Below are positions 438-9,135 of a stretch of 53,072 nt of DNA, piece by piece. Positions within the stretch are counted from its first letter, which is position 1; every line of letters begins with the position of its first letter. Made by a program: the position numbers and the translations under genes. The stretch spans positions 1 to 53,072 of the forward strand of contig JACRER010000040.1 of NCBI GenBank assembly GCA_016234365.1, written 5' to 3'. Source of the stretch: Elusimicrobiota bacterium (GTDB lineage: Bacteria > Elusimicrobiota > Elusimicrobia > Elusimicrobiales > UBA9959). A model generated the notes under the pieces. It was not told where the DNA came from and did no database searches. It worked only from the letters and a program-made list of their open reading frames with translations.

Positions 438-1289
438 TTAACTCTTGCGCCTGGACAAAAAACAGGACAAGCCGGCCTTCGAGAGTATCTTAAACTGTTT
501 TGGAGTGGAGAGCAGCAACCTGTCAGCCTGATAATTCAACCCGAAATACACCTGCGCCCTATTTACAAATCCGAGTCTCTTAGCCCCATTCACGCTCTTC
601 TCTGCAAACGCTGCCCCATGCACACGCCGGCAAACCCTATGCAAGGTCTCTAAGTCTTTTTCACTAATTTCTCTTTTGAAGCCATTATACTTTTCAGAGT
701 AAGCCGCAAGCAGCTCCTTGTCATCGATATCTCTGTAAATCTCATTGTGAAGCACTATTTTCGCCTCAAGCCGCTTGCGTGGGGGTGGGCGCATTGACGG
801 GTATCCAACCACCAGGGAAACAACCGGAACCACCCCCTTGGGCAGGTGGCACATTTTGCGTATCTCCGGAATCCTGTCAAATATGGGACCAATATACACA
901 GAACCCAGGCCTAGCGCGTCGGCCGCAGTACACATGTTCTGGGCACATATTACAGTATCTTGGAAAGCAATCCAGAAAGGCCTGAGAGCCCGATCAGCGG
1001 AGAAAGGAGCCGATTCCATCTTCGCCCAGCGCTTCAATCTGTAAAGGTCTATACAGAACACAAGGTGCAAAGGAGCCGTTTTCATAAACCGCTGTCCACA
1101 CAGTTTTGCCAACCGGTTAATAGCAGCCCGTTTCTCTATCTTGACTATTGAATAGGGCTGAAGATTTCCCCCTGTAGGCGCATGAATGCCTGCCTCAATA
1201 ATATTTTTTACCACCGCAGCGGGGACTTTCCTCTTGGTAAATGCCCGGCAGCTTGCCCGCCCCAACAGAAGCTGTAAAGTCTTATTCAT
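438..1289 (-). CDS. Nitroreductase-family FMN oxidoreductase with C-terminal extension
   Basis: The 283-aa product has the nitroreductase fold signature: SCRAFTKRKVP near residues 13-23, APTGGNLQPYSI near 37-48 (FMN phosphate binding) and GLGSVYIGPI in the middle. Family members are FMN-dependent two-electron oxidoreductases; some act as dehydrogenases on peptide azolines in RiPP pathways. About 90 residues follow the usual family core (YSEKYNGFKREISEKD onward) and have no recognised domain. The start at 1289 is chosen because GGGAGAG precedes it; the open frame extends 13 codons further upstream. It is the last gene of the low-GC cassette, 117 nt behind the lipoprotein gene. The role in peptide modification is inferred only from neighbourhood. 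Confidence 0.8.
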   Translation of the reverse strand: MNKTLQLLLGRASCRAFTKRKVPAAVVKNIIEAGIHAPTGGNLQPYSIVKIEKRAAINRLAKLCGQRFMKTAPLHLVFCIDLYRLKRWAKMESAPFSADRALRPFWIAFQDTVICAQNMCTAADALGLGSVYIGPIFDRIPEIRKMCHLPKGVVPVVSLVVGYPSMRPPPRKRLEAKIVLHNEIYRDIDDKELLAAYSEKYNGFKREISEKDLETLHRVCRRVHGAAFAEKSVNGAKRLGFVNRAQVYFGLNYQADRLLLSTPKQFKILSKAGLSCFLSRRKS

Positions 1290-1406
1290 TTGCTCTCCCT
1301 GCGGTTTCCTTCGATTGCAATATTCCACACAAGCGGTTAAGCGGCGAACTAGTTCTCATTTATAGAAAACCGGCATGGATCTGTAGTCCCTGCGCATTAT
1401 CACGCT

Positions 1407-2804
1407 TCACCATTGAAAATCACCTATTTCTGGATACTCAAGGAACCCTTTTCCGACCACGATATTTTCAATCTTTTTCGGATACCAGAATACGCGGACA
1501 CTCTGGTATAGTGGGAGCGCTACGGCCTCCTTGGCCAACTCGCCCACGACCGACATGGCGAGTGCATGTTTGCGCCCGACATCCTCCGCGCTGAGCATGC
1601 CTTCAAAAAACTTTGCGCCGGCCGGAAGGTCAAAATCTAGATATCCGTCCTTACGGAAAAAAACTTCAAGAAAGGCCCGATGATCGGGCACAACGGCATC
1701 CAGGTGCATTATTGTCAGATGGTATGGCCGGGGCCGGGAATGGAGCATTTTTTTAAATTCTGCGGGAGGATAGTGTACTATCCGCATTCCCACTCCAGTC
1801 CTCTTAAAGAACGCCGCCGCAAAGCGATTCATCTGCTCGTCATTATCAGTACGCCAGTTAGAAAAAACAATGGGGCCATGTTTGTGCGTCAGCGCGGCAA
1901 GAGCCGCGCCGCAATCCTGCCTTGGCTCCCCCTGTTTCGCCCCGGGCACGCCTATCGGGAGCACTGACACCACGTCGAAAAAATCACTTTTTGACGGGAA
2001 GAAGGAACTGCGCAGCATTTTAATGTCCGTACAGTTGTATATCATCCTGCGCATCTCCGGATCAAGATGATTAATTATCAGGGCACCAGTCCTAAGTTCT
2101 GTACTATAAAAGCCCTGATAGTCTCCTTGGGCAGAAAGGGGCAGCTCCATTCCGCTAATCAAATTCCTATCCGCGATCCCACGGTCTCCCGCGGAGATAT
2201 CCGGAGAGTTTTGCCGCACGTCTATCGTGTTGTAACCGCGCCTCACCGGCACTTTCCGCGTCAGCAGTATTCTGTTTTTTTCGACCTTTTCCACCATGAA
2301 CGGGCCGAGCCCGTCCTCAACGACGCCGTCCCTCTCTACGGTTGGAGCGTTTTCGTACTGGGTCAAATAGAACAGGTAGTTTGGATGGCTGCGCGCGAAC
2401 TTCACGTTTACGCAACTATCCCGGACCTCCAGGACGGCGGAATCGTCCAATTTCCTCGTTACGCTCTCCAGGTGTTTTCCCAGCAGCCCGGCGGTAAATT
2501 TCGTCCGGGCATTAAACCGCAGTGATTGATTCGGGCAAAAGGCAAAATCCCTGAAATCCAAGCTTCGCTCCCATTTACGCAGTATTCTGGAGGAATAGTT
2601 TTCGCCATCATCCCTGCGCAACAGCGGCTCGTGGGTCTGCTTCAATATATACAGCACTATGCTGACGAACGCCTGGTTTGTGCGCACCTGGGACGGCAGG
2701 CTATTGGCCAGGACAACCCAGTTCTCCCTGGCGCCCCGGCAACCGGCGGCGAAGATTAGCCCAGCCAATATTAAAGGAAGGATTTTTTTGTTATATGCAG
2801 GCAT
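1407..2804 (-). CDS. Oligopeptide-binding-type extracellular lipoprotein (SBP family 5-like)
   Basis: The 465-aa protein begins with a lipoprotein signal: basic MPAYNKK, hydrophobic LILAGLIF, lipobox FAAGC with Cys22. The mature part has the look of ABC-transporter solute-binding family 5 (OppA/DppA): an N-terminal THEPLLRRDDGENYSSRILRKW segment followed by SLRFNARTKFTAG, matching the family pattern of a bound substrate lobe. It is shorter than usual (about 465 against 500-550). Family members bind peptides or other small solutes outside the membrane. No ABC permease or ATPase lies in the cassette. Its start overlaps the end of the GNAT-like gene by 34 nt, implying co-translation. A role in sensing or retrieving the cassette's peptide product is inference. 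Confidence 0.7.
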   Translation of the reverse strand: MPAYNKKILPLILAGLIFAAGCRGARENWVVLANSLPSQVRTNQAFVSIVLYILKQTHEPLLRRDDGENYSSRILRKWERSLDFRDFAFCPNQSLRFNARTKFTAGLLGKHLESVTRKLDDSAVLEVRDSCVNVKFARSHPNYLFYLTQYENAPTVERDGVVEDGLGPFMVEKVEKNRILLTRKVPVRRGYNTIDVRQNSPDISAGDRGIADRNLISGMELPLSAQGDYQGFYSTELRTGALIINHLDPEMRRMIYNCTDIKMLRSSFFPSKSDFFDVVSVLPIGVPGAKQGEPRQDCGAALAALTHKHGPIVFSNWRTDNDEQMNRFAAAFFKRTGVGMRIVHYPPAEFKKMLHSRPRPYHLTIMHLDAVVPDHRAFLEVFFRKDGYLDFDLPAGAKFFEGMLSAEDVGRKHALAMSVVGELAKEAVALPLYQSVRVFWYPKKIENIVVGKGFLEYPEIGDFQW

Positions 2805-3457
2805 ACGGGGCTGAACCCTGTTTTTCGAAAAAATCTTATCGATCTAAAGTTGAAAGAATCCACAAAAGCGTCTATCGCCCGTCCTTTCTTCGCCAGCCAT
2901 TCAACCGTAAGATAATGCGCCCGCGAGCGCTCATGCACAGCCAGTTCCGTGCTGAACCAGATCCAATTAAGGCAATACGTTCCCGGCTCCTCCCGCTCGT
3001 ATACGGTAGTCAGCCCCACGGGAGAAGACTGTTTTACAAGACACAACGAATTCTCAGGCAGCAACCTGTATTGCGCGACATCCCGTGAAAAGGCAATCCT
3101 GTCCGGAGTTATACTGGGCTTCCATTCCTCGTAGAACTCCATCACCCTCCGGAGATAAAGCTCGCGGATGAACGATATCTCTCCGGGCATTACGGCCACG
3201 GCCGTCTCCTCCCCGAGGCATGGCGGCAGGATGAACTGCCCGGCAGCTGCGCGATACTGTATTCTGGCCGAATAGGCGTCCGGGATATTCTTTTTTAATG
3301 TCTCGTACTCTCCGATATCGCCGCAAGGAACGCTGAATATCAATTTCGCACAGGCCGCCGCCGAAAAGCCGCCCCGGATTGCCTCTTCGGTTATATCTGA
3401 AATCGCTTCGGCCTTATAATACGCGTTCTGACCTTTGATATCCGTTTGCTTGATCAT
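2771..3457 (-). CDS. GNAT-like acyltransferase
   Basis: 228 aa. The C-terminal half (about 105-228) shows GNAT traits: an internal Val-Gly-Leu-Thr strand (SSPVGLTTVYE), then a strand-helix ending in DSFNFRSIRFFRKTGFSPV, which matches the typical closing motif of N-acetyltransferases (N..S..F..K.GF). The N-terminal 100 residues are unassigned. GNAT enzymes transfer an acyl group from acyl-CoA to an amine. The SD AGG sits inside the TTGAGG that also contains the stop codon of the radical SAM gene 10 nt upstream, so the two are translationally linked. Substrate unknown; modification of the cassette's peptide or its product is inferred from context. Confidence 0.6.
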   Translation of the reverse strand: MIKQTDIKGQNAYYKAEAISDITEEAIRGGFSAAACAKLIFSVPCGDIGEYETLKKNIPDAYSARIQYRAAAGQFILPPCLGEETAVAVMPGEISFIRELYLRRVMEFYEEWKPSITPDRIAFSRDVAQYRLLPENSLCLVKQSSPVGLTTVYEREEPGTYCLNWIWFSTELAVHERSRAHYLTVEWLAKKGRAIDAFVDSFNFRSIRFFRKTGFSPVCLHITKKSFL

Positions 3458-3467
3458 TCACAAAACC

Positions 3468-4331
3468 TCAAGGGCGAAGCTGGCTGTTTTCTTCCGGCCC
3501 GGAGAAGAGCTCCGCGCATAAAACGCACGGGCAGGAATACTCCGCAGACAATCTCCCCTCGTTCAACCCGACCTTTTTTGCCAGCTCCCCGAAAGAACAG
3601 GCCGTGATTTGCCGGTAGAATCCGCTTTCCCGCAATTGCTCCACGGTCCGGAAGAAATACTTCTCATAGCCTCGGCGGGGGATGTCACACACGGAAAACC
3701 CGCGGCCGCACATGTACACCATGCCATCCTTGTTCGGACAATACTGCGCGAGAATCTCTTTGTCAAACGACGGATATGCGTATGATATTTTATTCTCTTT
3801 CGCGGCCCCGTAGGGGACCACTTTCTGCACCCCTATGGTAAACTCCCCGGATTTTCGCAGTTGCGCTATCAGAGCGAGGTCTAGCGGGGATTGTATCGTC
3901 AGCACCACGCTGAACCGCAAGCCGAGACGATCACAAGCTTTTTTTAGGTTCTCAACATTTTCTATCGCAAGAAATTCACTATGGAACCTGTCGTATGAAA
4001 GCTGGACCTCATTCAGGCCGGTAATCTGCCGCAGTGTCTTCTCCGCAAGTTCCTCGGTAACGGCAAAGCCTCCGTTTGTGGTAATGACCACGCGGGGAGT
4101 ATACGCCACTGCGGACAACAAATCGTTAATGACGGGAATATACAGGGTCGGTTCGCCGCCTACCAAGATTAGAGTATCAAAGCGGAACTTGTTAATTGAT
4201 TTCGTTAGAAACAGAATCTCTGGCGCCGACAAACACTGCTGCTGAGGCCCGATAATAGCACAATGCCTGCACTTGAAAGTGCAGGCATAGCCAAGAACTA
4301 TACTTAAAGAATGCGCCATTTTGCTGTTCAT
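3468..4331 (-). CDS. Radical SAM enzyme with Cys-rich C-terminus, probable peptide maturase
   Basis: 287 aa. Residues 17-24 give the radical SAM cluster motif CTFKCRHC (Cys17, Cys21, Cys24), followed by VGGEPT at 57-62 and TTNGG at 84-88. The C-terminal part holds further cysteines at about 198, 208, 215, 245, 267, 269 and 272, arranged like the auxiliary iron-sulfur cluster region (twitch/SPASM) of peptide- and protein-modifying radical SAM enzymes. It starts 27 nt after the 65-aa peptide gene and is followed after 10 nt by the GNAT-like gene. No strong Shine-Dalgarno sequence precedes the start. Modification of the upstream peptide, for example at its two cysteines, is an inference from gene order and domain type. 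Confidence 0.85.
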   Translation of the reverse strand: MNSKMAHSLSIVLGYACTFKCRHCAIIGPQQQCLSAPEILFLTKSINKFRFDTLILVGGEPTLYIPVINDLLSAVAYTPRVVITTNGGFAVTEELAEKTLRQITGLNEVQLSYDRFHSEFLAIENVENLKKACDRLGLRFSVVLTIQSPLDLALIAQLRKSGEFTIGVQKVVPYGAAKENKISYAYPSFDKEILAQYCPNKDGMVYMCGRGFSVCDIPRRGYEKYFFRTVEQLRESGFYRQITACSFGELAKKVGLNEGRLSAEYSCPCVLCAELFSGPEENSQLRP

Positions 4332-4358
4332 ATCACAACAAAGACGCGAAAACAGGAA

Positions 4359-4556
4359 TTACTTCGGGGTAGGGACAGCCAATGATTCGTCGCAAGAACC
4401 ACCGGTGCCGCACGCATCCCCAGCCACTGCTATCGTGGACATAAGAACGGTCTTCTCATCCTGAGAGATAACTGAAACATAACTAGAGGCTTGGGCGACA
4501 GACAACGCCCCGAGAGACACTAGAAAGGCCGCGATAACCGCATCTTTGTTAGTCAT
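4359..4556 (-). CDS. Small Cys-containing exported peptide, candidate modified-peptide precursor
   Basis: 65 aa. Residues 1-23 look like a signal peptide: MTNK, hydrophobic AVIAAFLVSLGALSV, then AQA and SS as a cleavage site. The rest is short and polar and ends in ACGTGGSCDESLAVPTPK with cysteines 49 and 55 (C-x5-C, Gly-rich between). AAGGGG lies 8 nt before the ATG. It is the first gene of the low-GC cassette and directly precedes the radical SAM gene. I recognise no family. Short length, a Gly/Cys-rich tail and a neighbouring radical SAM gene are what one expects of a RiPP precursor, but a simple secreted peptide is also possible. Confidence 0.6.
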   Translation of the reverse strand: MTNKDAVIAAFLVSLGALSVAQASSYVSVISQDEKTVLMSTIAVAGDACGTGGSCDESLAVPTPK

Positions 4557-4617
4557 TTTATTTCCCCTTAACCCCTATATTCTGCCATTTCTGGAACTTT
4601 TTTGCAATTTGCCGATT

Positions 4618-4651
4618 AAAAAAGGGAAAGCAAAGTCACTTTTGCTTTCCC
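4618..4651 (-). terminator. Rho-independent terminator upstream of the peptide gene
   Basis: On the minus strand the stem GGGAAAGCAAA pairs with CTTTGCTTTCCC and is followed by six T. It lies 61 nt before the 65-aa peptide gene, so it either blocks read-through from the IS transposase or acts as an attenuator in the cassette's leader. Confidence 0.7.
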
Positions 4652-4793
4652 TGGATACATCCGGTTACGGCCGGATCGTGGATACTCTGGGGCCAATTCC
4701 CCAAATTACAAGGAAGACTACAGTGATAGTATAGCCGAACCGCAGCCCGGGCGTAAGGGCCCTTGGTCCCACCCCCGGCTAGGCCTTCCGGTA
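4652..4793. other. Intergenic leader with two further hairpins
   Basis: No coding sequence is seen. Reading the minus strand, two hairpins precede the terminator: TGGGG/CCCCA around 4697-4712 and ATCCGG/CCGGAT around 4660-4678. I could not match this to a riboswitch consensus. Together with the terminator it may be a regulatory leader of the cassette or a small RNA. Confidence 0.35.
4785..4793. repeat. Left target-site duplication of the IS
   Basis: CTTCCGGTA immediately outside the left inverted repeat; matches CCTCCGGTA at 6090-6098 in 8 of 9 positions. Confidence 0.6.
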
Positions 4794-6089
4794 CAGGGCT
4801 GTCCCAAGAAACTTTTTTAAGCGAAGGGCAGGAAGGGTTGCAAATCCCCGTCACGTATCCTGTTTAAGCGGTTTTGATTCAAATTCAGTGTATCCAGCAG
4901 CGATAATCGCTCCATAAGTCCGGCTTTTATCACCAGGTGCAGGTAATACAGCGAATGCGCGTAGCGGCTCTGGTACTTGATGTAAGCCAACAGCAGGTAA
5001 TAACACATGGCCGACCAGATCTGCGTCAAAACAGCGTTCTCGCTGGTCCCAAGAAACGTCTTTATCTTCAGGTTCTGCTTCACCCACCGGAAAAACGCCT
5101 CTATCTGCCAGCGCGATTTATAGATGTCGGCTATGGTCCTGGCCGGCAGCTTCAACTGGTTCGTTATAAACTCGAAGGTCTTGTCATGCTCTTTGTCGTA
5201 GTACCTTATAAGACGCATGAACCGGGGGTAGTTCTCCCTGCCCTTGCCAGCCAGTTCTATCACATCATCGCTTACCACCCCTTTGGCCGGGCCCTTCCAG
5301 CTTACATGCTGTCCCACAATGCGGTAACTAACCCGTTCCCGCAGCCTGGTTACGAAGTACACCCCGGCGTCGCTGATACGCCGCAACCACTTGGAATCGG
5401 TATAGCCCCGGTCAAAGCAATAGATGCTGTCCCGTGAAAGCTTAAAATGGGCTTTGGCGGCGACTACATCGTTTTCTTCGCCGCCGGTCATCACCATGAA
5501 ACACGGGATGTCCCCGCTGTGGTCGTACTGGAAGTGCATTTTGATGGCCCCCTTCTTGTGCTTTATCCGCGACCAGGGGAAGACCGACAGGCAAAGGCTG
5601 ATGGTGGTGGCGTCTATGCTGTAAAGCGGGTTCGGAAACTTGAACTTGTGTTTGGGCGTCAGGTCGCGGCAACGGGCCAGCAGTTTATAGAACATGCCTT
5701 CATAAATGCGGCTGTCACGGTTGGCGTTGGCGTGGGATAGGGTATTGCGGCAGATCTTGGCCGGCAGGCCCAGGTGGTAGGTGCGCATGGCCTGCACGGC
5801 AAAGGCGCTTTCTATCTCGCGCAGGCTTTCCAGCCCGCTTATCTGCGCGTATAGCAGGGCCGTGAACTGGTTCCAGGTGGTCAGGTTCTTCGTGTAGCGG
5901 TCGGCGCCGTGCTGACGCACGAGGTTTTCAAAATCATGTCTAGGTATCTGCGAAAGAACGTGCGAAAACAATGTGCTATAATGGGACATAAGGAATCCTC
6001 CGTCGGGAAAGACGTTTTTCTAGACCAAAAACATCTTACCATTAACGGAGGATTCTCTTTTTTTAACGGATTTTCTTGGGACAGCCCTG
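4794..6089 (-). mobile_element. IS4-family insertion sequence, complete
   Basis: The element is 1296 bp with perfect 18-bp terminal inverted repeats (CAGGGCTGTCCCAAGAAA at 4794-4811, its complement at 6072-6089). It contains one transposase gene and nothing else. Flanking 9-bp repeats CTTCCGGTA (4785-4793) and CCTCCGGTA (6090-6098) differ at one base and look like a slightly decayed target duplication. IS4-family elements make duplications of about this size. It sits exactly at the border between the low-GC cassette and the GC-rich backbone. Confidence 0.88.
4817..5989 (-). CDS. IS4-family transposase
   Basis: 390 aa, full length for the family. DDE-type catalytic features are visible: LYSIDATTIS near residue 127 (first Asp), CFDRGYTDSKW in the middle (second Asp), and the IS4 YREK signature in DIYKSRWQIEAFFRWVK (Tyr, Arg, Glu, Lys). 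It catalyses cut-and-paste movement of its own element. ACGGAGGATTCCTT precedes the ATG. The reading frame is uninterrupted and both inverted repeats are intact, so the element may still be mobile. Confidence 0.95.
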   Translation of the reverse strand: MSHYSTLFSHVLSQIPRHDFENLVRQHGADRYTKNLTTWNQFTALLYAQISGLESLREIESAFAVQAMRTYHLGLPAKICRNTLSHANANRDSRIYEGMFYKLLARCRDLTPKHKFKFPNPLYSIDATTISLCLSVFPWSRIKHKKGAIKMHFQYDHSGDIPCFMVMTGGEENDVVAAKAHFKLSRDSIYCFDRGYTDSKWLRRISDAGVYFVTRLRERVSYRIVGQHVSWKGPAKGVVSDDVIELAGKGRENYPRFMRLIRYYDKEHDKTFEFITNQLKLPARTIADIYKSRWQIEAFFRWVKQNLKIKTFLGTSENAVLTQIWSAMCYYLLLAYIKYQSRYAHSLYYLHLVIKAGLMERLSLLDTLNLNQNRLNRIRDGDLQPFLPFA

Positions 6090-6098: not shown

Positions 6099-6127
6099 TA
6101 ATTAATAATTATTAATTCCCACTTTTG

Positions 6128-6133
6128 TATAAT
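6128..6133 (+). promoter_or_regulatory. -10 element of the M16 peptidase operon
   Basis: TATAAT 43 nt before the ATG at 6176, just 38 bp inside the right end of the IS. No convincing -35 hexamer is seen. Confidence 0.5.
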
Positions 6134-6175
6134 ACCCGGGTGGTAATTCAACCGCCTTTTTCTCCGGAGGATATG

Positions 6176-7723
6176 ATGCGTTTTTCCTTTCTTCTTCCCT
6201 GTCTTCTCATGTTCACCCAGGCATCCTACGCCAAGGACGCCGCCGGCAGCGCTCTCCCGCCGGGAGCCGTAGTCGAGACCGACCCCAAGTATCCACCGGT
6301 AGTTTCCTATACCCTGAAGAACGGGTTGAAGCTGCTGATCCTGGAAAAGCATTTCACCCCCACCATCTCCTACTCCATCGCCTTTAAAGTAGGGAACGTG
6401 GACAGCCCGCAGGGGAAAACCGGCCTGCCCCACCTTTTCGAACACATGGCGTTCAAGGGCACCCAGACCGTCAACACCAAGGATTACAAGAAGGAAAAGG
6501 TCGCCCTCGACAAGATAGAAACCGCCGCGAAGGCCATGATAGCCGAGGAACGCAAGCCCAACCCCGATAAGACCCTCCTCGAAACCCTCAAGAAGAACCT
6601 GGCCGCCGCCGAGAAAGAGGCCGACGCCTTCATCATCAAGGACGAGTTCACCCAGATCTACAAGAACCTGGGCGAGAACGGCCTGAACGCCGCCACCGGT
6701 TACGACTACACCTTCTATCTGGTCTCGCTGCCAGCCAACCAGCTCGAAACGCTGATGGCCATGGAAGCGGACCGCTTCAAGAACCCGGTGCTGCGCGAAT
6801 TCTACCGCGAGCGCAGCGTGGTAATGGAAGAACGCCGCATGTACGAGGCCAAGCCCGAGAGCGCCCTGAGCGAGGAACTTACCACCACGGCCCTGGAAGC
6901 GCACCCGTACCGCTACCCCATCGTGGGCTGGATGGACGACATAAAGACCTTTACCCGCACGGACGCGGAGAAGTTCTATAAGCGTTTCTACGTGCCCAAT
7001 AACGCCACCCTGGCCATAGTGGGCGACGTAAAGCCGACTGAGGTCATAAAGTTGGCCGAAAAATATTTTTCCGACTGGAAACCGGCGGAACTGCCCGACA
7101 CCAACTACACCAAGGAGCCCCAGCAGAACTCGGAAAAGCGTTTCGACCTTTTCTTCAAAGCCAACCCGTCGCTGCGCATGGCCTTCCATAACCCCGGCTA
7201 CGCCAACCCAGACATGTACCCGCTGATGATGGTGAGCGAGGTGCTCTCCGGGGGCAAGACCGCGCGCTTCTACCGGAACCTGGTGGAAGGCAAGCAGTTG
7301 GCCCTCTACGCGGCCTCCGGCGCCAGCACCTCCTCCCGCTATCCCTCGCTCTTCATAGTGGTGGGCGCCCCCAAGGCCCCCAACACCCTGGAAGCCCTGG
7401 AGAACGGGATTTGGGAAGAGATAGAGAAGCTCAAGACCGAACCGCCCACAGCCTGGGAACTGGAACGGATAGTTAACGCCCACGAGGCGGAGATGGTAAA
7501 GGGCCTGGAGTCCAGCCTGGACACCTCGCAGAACCTGGCCATCTCCCAGCAGATAATGGGCGACTGGAAATTCGACTGGAAGACCATAGAGGAACTGCGC
7601 AAGGTGAAGCCGGAGGACGTTTCCGCCGCCGCCGCCAAGTACCTCATCCGCAGTAATTACACCGTAGGATTCCTCCGCCAGCCGCTGGCCGCGCCCGCGC
7701 CGGCCAAAGGAGACTCCAAATGA
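6176..7723 (+). CDS. M16-family zinc metallopeptidase, catalytic member
   Basis: 515 aa with a Sec signal peptide (MRFSFLLPCLLMFTQASYA). The inverted zinc motif HLFEH is at residues 86-90, as in pitrilysin and the processing peptidases. Length fits one M16 unit of two domains. GGAGG lies 5 nt before ATG 6176; a second ATG one codon upstream is too close to it. The stop overlaps the start of the next gene (ATGA), which encodes an inactive paralogue, the usual bacterial arrangement of a heterodimeric periplasmic peptidase. Residues 110-155 (KKEKVALDKIETAAKAM) form an inserted charged helix. Substrate unknown. Confidence 0.92.
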   Translation: MRFSFLLPCLLMFTQASYAKDAAGSALPPGAVVETDPKYPPVVSYTLKNGLKLLILEKHFTPTISYSIAFKVGNVDSPQGKTGLPHLFEHMAFKGTQTVNTKDYKKEKVALDKIETAAKAMIAEERKPNPDKTLLETLKKNLAAAEKEADAFIIKDEFTQIYKNLGENGLNAATGYDYTFYLVSLPANQLETLMAMEADRFKNPVLREFYRERSVVMEERRMYEAKPESALSEELTTTALEAHPYRYPIVGWMDDIKTFTRTDAEKFYKRFYVPNNATLAIVGDVKPTEVIKLAEKYFSDWKPAELPDTNYTKEPQQNSEKRFDLFFKANPSLRMAFHNPGYANPDMYPLMMVSEVLSGGKTARFYRNLVEGKQLALYAASGASTSSRYPSLFIVVGAPKAPNTLEALENGIWEEIEKLKTEPPTAWELERIVNAHEAEMVKGLESSLDTSQNLAISQQIMGDWKFDWKTIEELRKVKPEDVSAAAAKYLIRSNYTVGFLRQPLAAPAPAKGDSK

Positions 7724-9135
7724 AGAACCTCATCTCCAAAGCCTCGGTATTAGGAGCCATCATGGCAATGTCCCTCTCCACGGCGCGCGCCGTGCCGCTT
7801 AACCTGCCCAAAGCCCCCCCGCTGAAGTTCGACCCGCCCAAGGGCGAACGCGTGGTCCTGCCCAACGGCATGATAGTCTACCTGCTCAACGACCCGGCCC
7901 TTCCCGCGGTCAGGATAAACGCCGTGGTCCGCACCGGCACCATCAACGACCCGGCCGACAAAGTGGGCCTGGGCGCCCTGACGGCCGGCATGCTGGAGGA
8001 CGGCGGCAGCGCCGCCTACAAGGCCGAAGAGATCGACAAGACGCTGGAGTACCTGGGCGCCACCATCAACTCGTCCATAGAAGTTGAGGACGCGAGCGTC
8101 TCCATGTTCGCCCTCAAGAAGGACTTCGACAAAGTGCTGGACATCTACGCCGACGTGCTGATGCACCCGGCCTTCGAAGCGGAGAAATTCAACATCTTCA
8201 AGAAAGCGGAACTGGAAATGATACGGCGCCGCAACGACGATCCCGGCAAATCCGTGGTGCGCGAGGCCCTGCGCCAGTATTATGGCAAGAACCATCCCTA
8301 CGGCCGCCGCAACGAGGCCGAGGTGATAGAAGGTATTACCATAGCGGACCTCCAGGCGCAGCACTCCGCCTACTACAGACCCAACAACGTCATCATGGCT
8401 GTGAGCGGCAGCTACGGCACCAAAGAGGAGATCCTGGCCAAGCTGGAGCAGCGCTTCGGTAAATGGGAAAAGCGCGAGATCAAAGCGCCAGTCATGGCGC
8501 CCCCCGCCACCCACGCCGGCCGCAGCGTCTTCTTCATCGACAAGGAGGTCCCCCAGGCCTTCATCATGATAGTGCAGAAGGGCATACAGCGCCCGGACCC
8601 GGTATTCTTCCCGCTCGGCATCACCAACGACGTGGTGGGAGCCCCGGGCCTTTCGTCCAGGCTCTGGGACACGGTCCGCGCCCGCAAGGGCCTGGCCTAC
8701 ACCGTCTACTCCGCCTCGGTCAGGCACACGGAGTACCCGGGCCACCTGTTCGCCTACTGCGGCACCAAGCCCGAAACCTATTCCCAGGCCCTGTCCGAGA
8801 TCCTCAAGCAGCTCAAGATCGCCAAGACAGAGCCGCTTTCCCAGCAGGAACTCGACGACGCGAAAGGTGCCAAGATTAACTCCTTCGTCTTCATGTTCAA
8901 GACGCCTTTCGACGTGGTCAGCCAGCGCGCCCTGCTCGAGCACCTGGGCTTCGGGCCTGACTACCTGGAGACATACGTGAGCAACGTCTCCGGCGTCACC
9001 CGGGACTCCGCCTTCGCGGCGGCCTCCAAGATCTTCGACCCCGACAACGCGCTGATCTTTGTGATCGGGAATTCCAAGAAGTTCGACAAGCCGCTGTCCG
9101 AGTTCGGGCCGGTAACCGAGCTGAAGGAAGACTGA
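7720..9135 (+). CDS. M16-family peptidase, non-catalytic partner
   Basis: 471 aa with a signal peptide (MKNLISKASVLGAIMAMSLSTARA). The fold matches M16 (LPNGMIVYLLNDPALPAVRI; later RLWDTVRARKGLAYTVYS, the C-terminal-domain motif), but where the zinc motif should be it reads GLGALTAGMLEDGG, so the His/Glu ligands are missing. Family knowledge: such partners complete the substrate chamber of the active subunit. It overlaps the active gene by 4 nt, so the two should be made in equal amounts. Confidence 0.9.
   Translation: MKNLISKASVLGAIMAMSLSTARAVPLNLPKAPPLKFDPPKGERVVLPNGMIVYLLNDPALPAVRINAVVRTGTINDPADKVGLGALTAGMLEDGGSAAYKAEEIDKTLEYLGATINSSIEVEDASVSMFALKKDFDKVLDIYADVLMHPAFEAEKFNIFKKAELEMIRRRNDDPGKSVVREALRQYYGKNHPYGRRNEAEVIEGITIADLQAQHSAYYRPNNVIMAVSGSYGTKEEILAKLEQRFGKWEKREIKAPVMAPPATHAGRSVFFIDKEVPQAFIMIVQKGIQRPDPVFFPLGITNDVVGAPGLSSRLWDTVRARKGLAYTVYSASVRHTEYPGHLFAYCGTKPETYSQALSEILKQLKIAKTEPLSQQELDDAKGAKINSFVFMFKTPFDVVSQRALLEHLGFGPDYLETYVSNVSGVTRDSAFAAASKIFDPDNALIFVIGNSKKFDKPLSEFGPVTELKED

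Follow-up and report, generated by a model that had tools for sequence, protein, structure and literature searches.

A riboswitch-led operon in Elusimicrobiota that may encode a radical SAM-modified peptide signal together with its own binding-protein/kinase sensor

Most of what is known about autoinducers made of modified peptides comes from Gram-positive bacteria, and we know of no modified-peptide signal in the phylum Elusimicrobiota. Here we describe an operon at one end of a 53 072-nt stretch of DNA of an Elusimicrobiota bacterium (GenBank assembly GCA_016234365.1, contig JACRER010000040.1; this whole stretch is called the window below), which encodes a small exported peptide, a radical S-adenosylmethionine (SAM) enzyme, a solute-binding protein (SBP) and a histidine kinase behind a riboswitch. 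In the EpeX–EpeE system of Bacillus subtilis (formerly yydFG) a small exported precursor likewise has a radical SAM enzyme as its neighbour, which shares the fold of the enzyme described here and has the radical SAM cluster and one auxiliary cluster, but the window operon lacks protease and transporter genes of the EpeP/EpeAB type and has the SBP and histidine kinase genes instead. LuxP–LuxQ is a binding protein coupled to a histidine kinase, and in both LuxP–LuxQ and Vibrio CBP–ChiS a periplasmic-facing SBP is paired with a membrane histidine kinase, as in the window; their ligands, however, are AI-2 or chitin oligosaccharides and not a co-encoded modified peptide. CBP, which negatively controls chitin signalling (PMC10667598), is an SBP of cluster C, as is the protein in the window. 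Peptide signalling and the radical SAM biosynthesis of ribosomally synthesized and post-translationally modified peptides (RiPPs) are also combined in one regulatory unit in the Rgg/SHP-controlled RaS-RiPPs of streptococci, e.g. tryglysin (PMC8092268), but there the signal, SHP, is a different molecule from the RiPP and its target is a cytoplasmic regulator, whereas the Elusimicrobiota operon has a single small peptide with an SBP and a kinase.

We interpret the operon, with a probability of about 0.55, as encoding a RiPP-type peptide signal that is gated by 2′-deoxyguanosine (2′-dG) and sensed by its own binding-protein/kinase pair. A rise in intracellular 2′-dG would let the riboswitch aptamer form, the terminator would be blocked and RNA polymerase would enter the operon; a 65-amino-acid (aa) precursor would be made, whose N-terminus would act both as recognition leader for the radical SAM enzyme and as Sec signal peptide; an EpeE-like enzyme would modify its tail by alpha-carbon radical chemistry (epimerization in most members, possibly another outcome in the window); and the modified peptide would be exported and trimmed. 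The lipoprotein, which has no ATP-binding cassette (ABC) permease alongside, would capture the mature peptide, and the loaded lipoprotein would contact the periplasmic loop of the histidine kinase, a protein with two transmembrane segments translated together with the lipoprotein. This contact would alter how far an NtrC-type sigma-54 regulator is phosphorylated (genes for regulators of this type adjoin several related loci), and the hypervariable tail would make the signalling strain-specific. An earlier note on this DNA had read the genes as an unassigned peptide-modification cassette; its proposal that an exported peptide is bound by the lipoprotein is still the best reading, but we regard the locus as a sensing operon rather than a modification cassette, because the riboswitch upstream and the histidine kinase downstream, both overlooked in that note, belong to the unit. 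As a whole it appears to represent a new kind of peptide signalling in bacteria, not an orphan antibiotic cluster.

The riboswitch aptamer (4646–4716, minus strand) matches the 2′-dG-II class (RF03165) with 84.9 bits (E-value 2.3e-21; gathering score 60 bits), covers the full model (1–71) and keeps the class consensus. Folding places an intrinsic terminator hairpin with a U-run at 4617–4652 (minus strand), and aptamer and terminator together immediately precede the peptide gene. The hairpin and the aptamer helix P1 have 7 nt in common, in the 5′ arm of the former and the 3′ strand of the latter; an overlap of at least 7 nt is seen in all 22 folded cases, and in 19 of 21 folded relatives the predicted hairpin is followed by a recognizable U-run. 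Since one strand cannot be in both helices, ligand binding and termination should be mutually exclusive, and the riboswitch is predicted to be an ON switch. Of the 24 cassettes with enough upstream DNA, 20 have the aptamer ahead of the peptide gene, and the window is a further case. It is not a universal part of the cassette: it is absent in three loci (L042, L046 and L096; L-numbers denote individual loci from related genomes), partly lost in L055 and absent in distant relatives. Upstream of the aptamer lies a promoter-like block, CCAAGGGCCCTT-N21-TATACTA (4727–4766, minus strand), in which the palindromic CCAAGGGCCCTT stands about 21 nt before TATACTA. Most of the aligned cassettes have a similar block ahead of the aptamer, and the palindrome is possibly a regulator site; a genome-wide regulon was considered and dropped, with a single exact match to the block in the genome.

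The coding part of the operon is on the minus strand as well, and the five open reading frames (ORFs) of the earlier note are present in its order, from 4556 down to 438. The precursor peptide (65 aa, 4359–4556), with the two cysteines noted before at positions 49 and 55, is followed by the putative peptide-modifying radical SAM enzyme (3468–4331), for which one auxiliary cluster is predicted and which does have seven cysteines from residue 198 onward, then by a GNAT-like gene (2771–3457), the lipoprotein gene (1407–2804) and a nitroreductase gene (438–1328, likely start 1289); the distances between the five are 27 nt, 10 nt, a 34-nt overlap and 78 nt. Beyond them the N-terminal 111 codons of the histidine kinase (1–333), cut by the contig end, correspond to the start of the L029 kinase, which is complete.

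We searched a set of 101 related genomes with the window radical SAM protein. Its family is distinct (39–97% identity) and found in about 23 genomes, some of which have two or three copies; the named carriers are Elusimicrobia metagenome-assembled genomes (MAGs), many from groundwater or lakes. Gene order was compared in 27 loci of related Elusimicrobia MAGs (some cut by contig ends), and the core order is peptide, radical SAM enzyme, variable slot, lipoprotein, histidine kinase. Each of the 27 strong matches to the peptide has a radical SAM gene of the family immediately downstream, so the peptide and the radical SAM gene, two of the three whose co-occurrence the earlier note had proposed to look for, do occur together. 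The note had also reasoned that the link would fall if the peptide occurred without the enzyme: this happens once, in L093 (riboswitch, peptide, lipoprotein, kinase), which leaves the link between peptide and radical SAM gene standing and shows that the peptide also goes with the lipoprotein/kinase pair. A histidine kinase gene comes after the lipoprotein gene in 33 of 34 loci, either at once or with a nitroreductase gene in between, and the lipoprotein and kinase ORFs overlap by 4–8 nt in 31 of the 34 (two of the other three carry the nitroreductase gene between them). This core reaches beyond these loci: L096, L097 and L098 are from other Elusimicrobiota families, and two carriers belong to the Bdellovibrionota, namely a Bacteriovoracaceae MAG (L158) and Halobacteriovorax marinus (L160; its candidate for the exported precursor is a protein of 317 aa); by these gene orders the core radical SAM module appears to be common to Elusimicrobiota and Bdellovibrionota of the predatory Bacteriovoracaceae lineage. 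In the literature that was searched, no paper linked Elusimicrobia to both radical SAM enzymes and histidine kinases, or Halobacteriovorax to radical SAM enzymes.

The peptides have a conserved leader, a variable core and an adjoining enzyme, as RiPP precursors do. Mean pairwise identity is 61% over residues 1–23, a segment that resembles a signal peptide, 38% over residues 24–40 and 16% in the hypervariable tail. Because the residue-level conservation of the N-terminus is high for a mere signal peptide, this part is probably a combined radical SAM recognition leader and export signal. Distances between the radical SAM proteins track those between the leaders (rho 0.52, Mantel p 0.0005); their correlation with tail distances is weaker (rho 0.24).

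The lipoprotein carries a lipobox-like motif (LIFAAGC22) and, in agreement with the OppA-type assignment of the earlier note, has the fold of a cluster-C SBP: the PDB matches of its AlphaFold model (pLDDT 88) are all cluster-C SBPs (NikA, DppA and OppA; E-values from about 1e-25 to 1e-21, TM-scores 0.6–0.7), and its Pfam match to SBP_bac_5 (E-value 0.24) is below the cut-off. It does not look like part of an ABC oligopeptide importer, as it is adjoined by the histidine kinase and no permease follows; the downstream 560-aa gene had been taken for an ABC permease, a guess from its hydrophobic start, and is a histidine kinase by Pfam. The complete kinase in L029 has 561 aa, with HisKA and HATPase_c domains and a receiver-like tail (the tail judged by eye), and two predicted transmembrane segments around a loop of about 100 aa that has no Pfam match. 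Genes for NtrC-type sigma-54 regulators adjoin L032, L098 and L158, so that across the family a HisKA–HATPase_c kinase and a nearby regulator, its putative partner, make up a two-component system; no regulator was identified next to the window copy.

The nearest relative of known structure of the radical SAM enzyme (PF04055, E-value 8e-10) is EpeE (YydG), which comes first, over the full length, in a profile search against the PDB (E-value 7e-26). In a fold search with the AlphaFold model (pLDDT 90.5) the top nine PDB matches are all EpeE chains (E-value about 1e-13, TM-score 0.76; next best 8e-8), and the radical SAM motif and C198, C215, C269 and C272 are invariant in the family and align with the C-terminal cysteines of EpeE. 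EpeE-like chemistry is our working model for the family, from which the window copy possibly departs. The relationship to EpeE also favours an antimicrobial, epipeptide-like RiPP, i.e. a D-amino-acid peptide that kills competitors, with the lipoprotein for immunity or sequestration and a kinase that senses the self-made toxin or envelope stress and autoinduces the operon: the product of EpeE acts on membranes and sets off the LiaRS two-component system (PMC8326336), and a hypervariable tail would fit arms-race evolution. We consider this unlikely, though the least unlikely of the alternatives, since maps of the cassettes, inspected by eye, contain no recognized dedicated exporter or immunity ABC genes, the lipoprotein and kinase ORFs overlap in 31 of 34 loci and are kept where the radical SAM gene is missing, and the lipoprotein has an SBP fold, not a known immunity fold.

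The plan of an exported peptide with its own SBP and kinase recurs elsewhere behind the same riboswitch. RF03165 is found in 53 of the 101 relatives, all of one family, and eight 2′-dG-II operons (L105, L109, L106, L117, L119, L127, L113 and L125) encode a 57–77-aa exported peptide, an SBP_bac_5 protein and a histidine kinase; six of the eight also have an enzyme, either a different radical SAM protein (L105 and L109) or a YcaO-like protein (L106, L117, L119 and L127; the assignment is above the Pfam cut-off only in L127). The precursor families of these parallel operons are independent and built on the same plan. We propose, more tentatively than for the window operon and at somewhat less than even odds, that in Elusimicrobiota a whole class of RiPP-type signalling modules is under the control of 2′-dG-II riboswitches. 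Each module would combine an exported precursor, a modifying enzyme (EpeE-like radical SAM, SPASM-like radical SAM or YcaO), a cluster-C SBP and a histidine kinase, and the availability of deoxynucleosides, i.e. of DNA-derived compounds, would thereby be linked to modified-peptide communication. The literature we searched on the 2′-dG-II class (PMC9295807 among it) gave no link with RiPP genes, the gene list of the founding 2017 paper being outside that search. If our interpretation is right, signalling has a new layout, in which a peptide modified by a radical SAM or YcaO enzyme has a binding-protein/kinase pair dedicated to it, a little-understood riboswitch class is tied to a concrete, testable regulon, EpeE-like enzymes gain a possible role besides toxin making, and there is a marker set for many uncultured groundwater bacteria and for one lineage of a cultivable genus (Halobacteriovorax).

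Several observations weigh against the interpretation of the operon as a 2′-dG-gated peptide signal with its own sensor. The ligand, 2′-dG, is predicted from class membership, and an RF03165 search of the distant cassette relatives (including the Bacteriovoracaceae MAG and Halobacteriovorax marinus) gave no match, so that riboswitch control is a local addition. No maturation protease is constant across the cassettes. EpeE epimerizes Val and Ile by abstraction of the alpha-hydrogen and proposed re-donation of a hydrogen from Cys223 (PMC8326336). On the assumption of a 25-residue tag on the crystallized EpeE chain, the counterpart of Cys223 in the alignment is position 216. Of 25 members, 21 have Cys there, but the window enzyme has Asp (as do its 71% relative L030, L040 and one L036 copy), and the reaction in the window may therefore differ from that of EpeE. 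The EpeE/YydG profile TIGR04078 matches all 25 members (best E-value 2.3e-22), but all of them stay far below its cut-off of 300 bits; the window protein has 45.8 bits and reaches the cut-off of no curated NCBIfam radical SAM family; given this score and the replaced donor cysteine we do not claim membership of the YydG family. Cluster-C SBPs bind many ligands, and lipoprotein distances correlate weakly with tail distances (rho 0.17, p 0.03), so specific binding of the peptide is not demonstrated. Cysteines are found in the tails of only 14 of 25 peptides, and a conserved Cys as general modification site was rejected on this count. Finally, L094 and L095 keep the lipoprotein–kinase pair without a recognized peptide or radical SAM gene.

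The last point bears on an alternative in which the lipoprotein and kinase form a sensor of environmental oligopeptides or other nutrients and the small peptide, instead of signalling between cells, acts as inhibitor or placeholder ligand. Cluster-C SBPs usually bind nutrients. The negative control of signalling by Vibrio CBP (PMC10667598) would fit such a role too, but the peptide and radical SAM genes are constant companions and peptides recur in the independent 2′-dG-II SBP–kinase operons, and we regard this alternative as improbable. Slightly less probable still is metallophore or nutrient scavenging, in which the modified peptide would chelate metal or probe the surroundings and the SBP/kinase pair would report the loaded form: the best profile and fold neighbours of the lipoprotein include the metal or metallophore SBPs CntA and NikA, and more than half of the tails have a Cys, but this Cys is not conserved, no permease or TonB receptor is recognized within the cassettes, and the plan recurs with unrelated peptides and YcaO enzymes. 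On balance the peptide signal with its own sensor remains our preferred interpretation.

Two genes of the window operon are less constant. The ORF that the earlier note called GNAT-like is present, but its family match is weak (Pfam E-value 0.06, below the cut-off) and it occupies the variable slot, which holds a GNAT-like gene in 11 related cassettes among the 27 loci compared and elsewhere an M3 peptidase, a transglutaminase–TPR protein, a beta-lactamase-fold serine hydrolase or nothing. The NfsA-type nitroreductase (PF00881, E-value 4.5e-24), which lies between lipoprotein and kinase, is accessory and does not hold its place as a member of the cassette: only five of 12 close homologues are near a cassette, on either side, and seven are outside cassettes, which rules it out as a core gene. 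Its C-terminal extension of about 75 aa is real; it is not novel as had been thought, being common to relatives of 281–284 aa.

Other genes are found behind 2′-dG-II riboswitches or next to the cassettes. In seven loci (L061, L100, L104, L114, L126, L129 and L131) the riboswitch is upstream of exported proteins of the metallo-beta-lactamase fold (e.g. PF00753 with an E-value of 7.5e-16 in L061), which resemble ComEC-type or nuclease-type domains, with a possible link to external DNA. In seven more (L060, L101, L102, L107, L110, L112 and L123) it is upstream of a family of exported proteins of roughly 200–290 aa, several of which start with a signal peptide followed by xVDFD; Pfam searches with two members gave no significant match. 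TldD/TldE (PmbA) metallopeptidase genes, whose products process other RiPPs, are directly upstream of the cassette in L036, L038, L039 and L034. Just upstream of the window operon, and not part of it, is an IS4-family insertion (4794–6089; transposase 4817–5989) with perfect 18-bp terminal inverted repeats, which leaves the promoter-like block, riboswitch and operon intact; the near-identical locus L029 has the same genes at 91–98% identity without this element. Just past the insertion, two genes for M16 (insulinase-type) peptidases (6125–9135, plus strand) diverge from the cassette; such genes also adjoin the L029 cassette and are not conserved across cassettes, and the peptidases are candidates for peptide trimming. 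The genome of the window has more than 20 radical SAM gene matches within about 57 kb (contig C68 of genome G000, about 6–63 kb).

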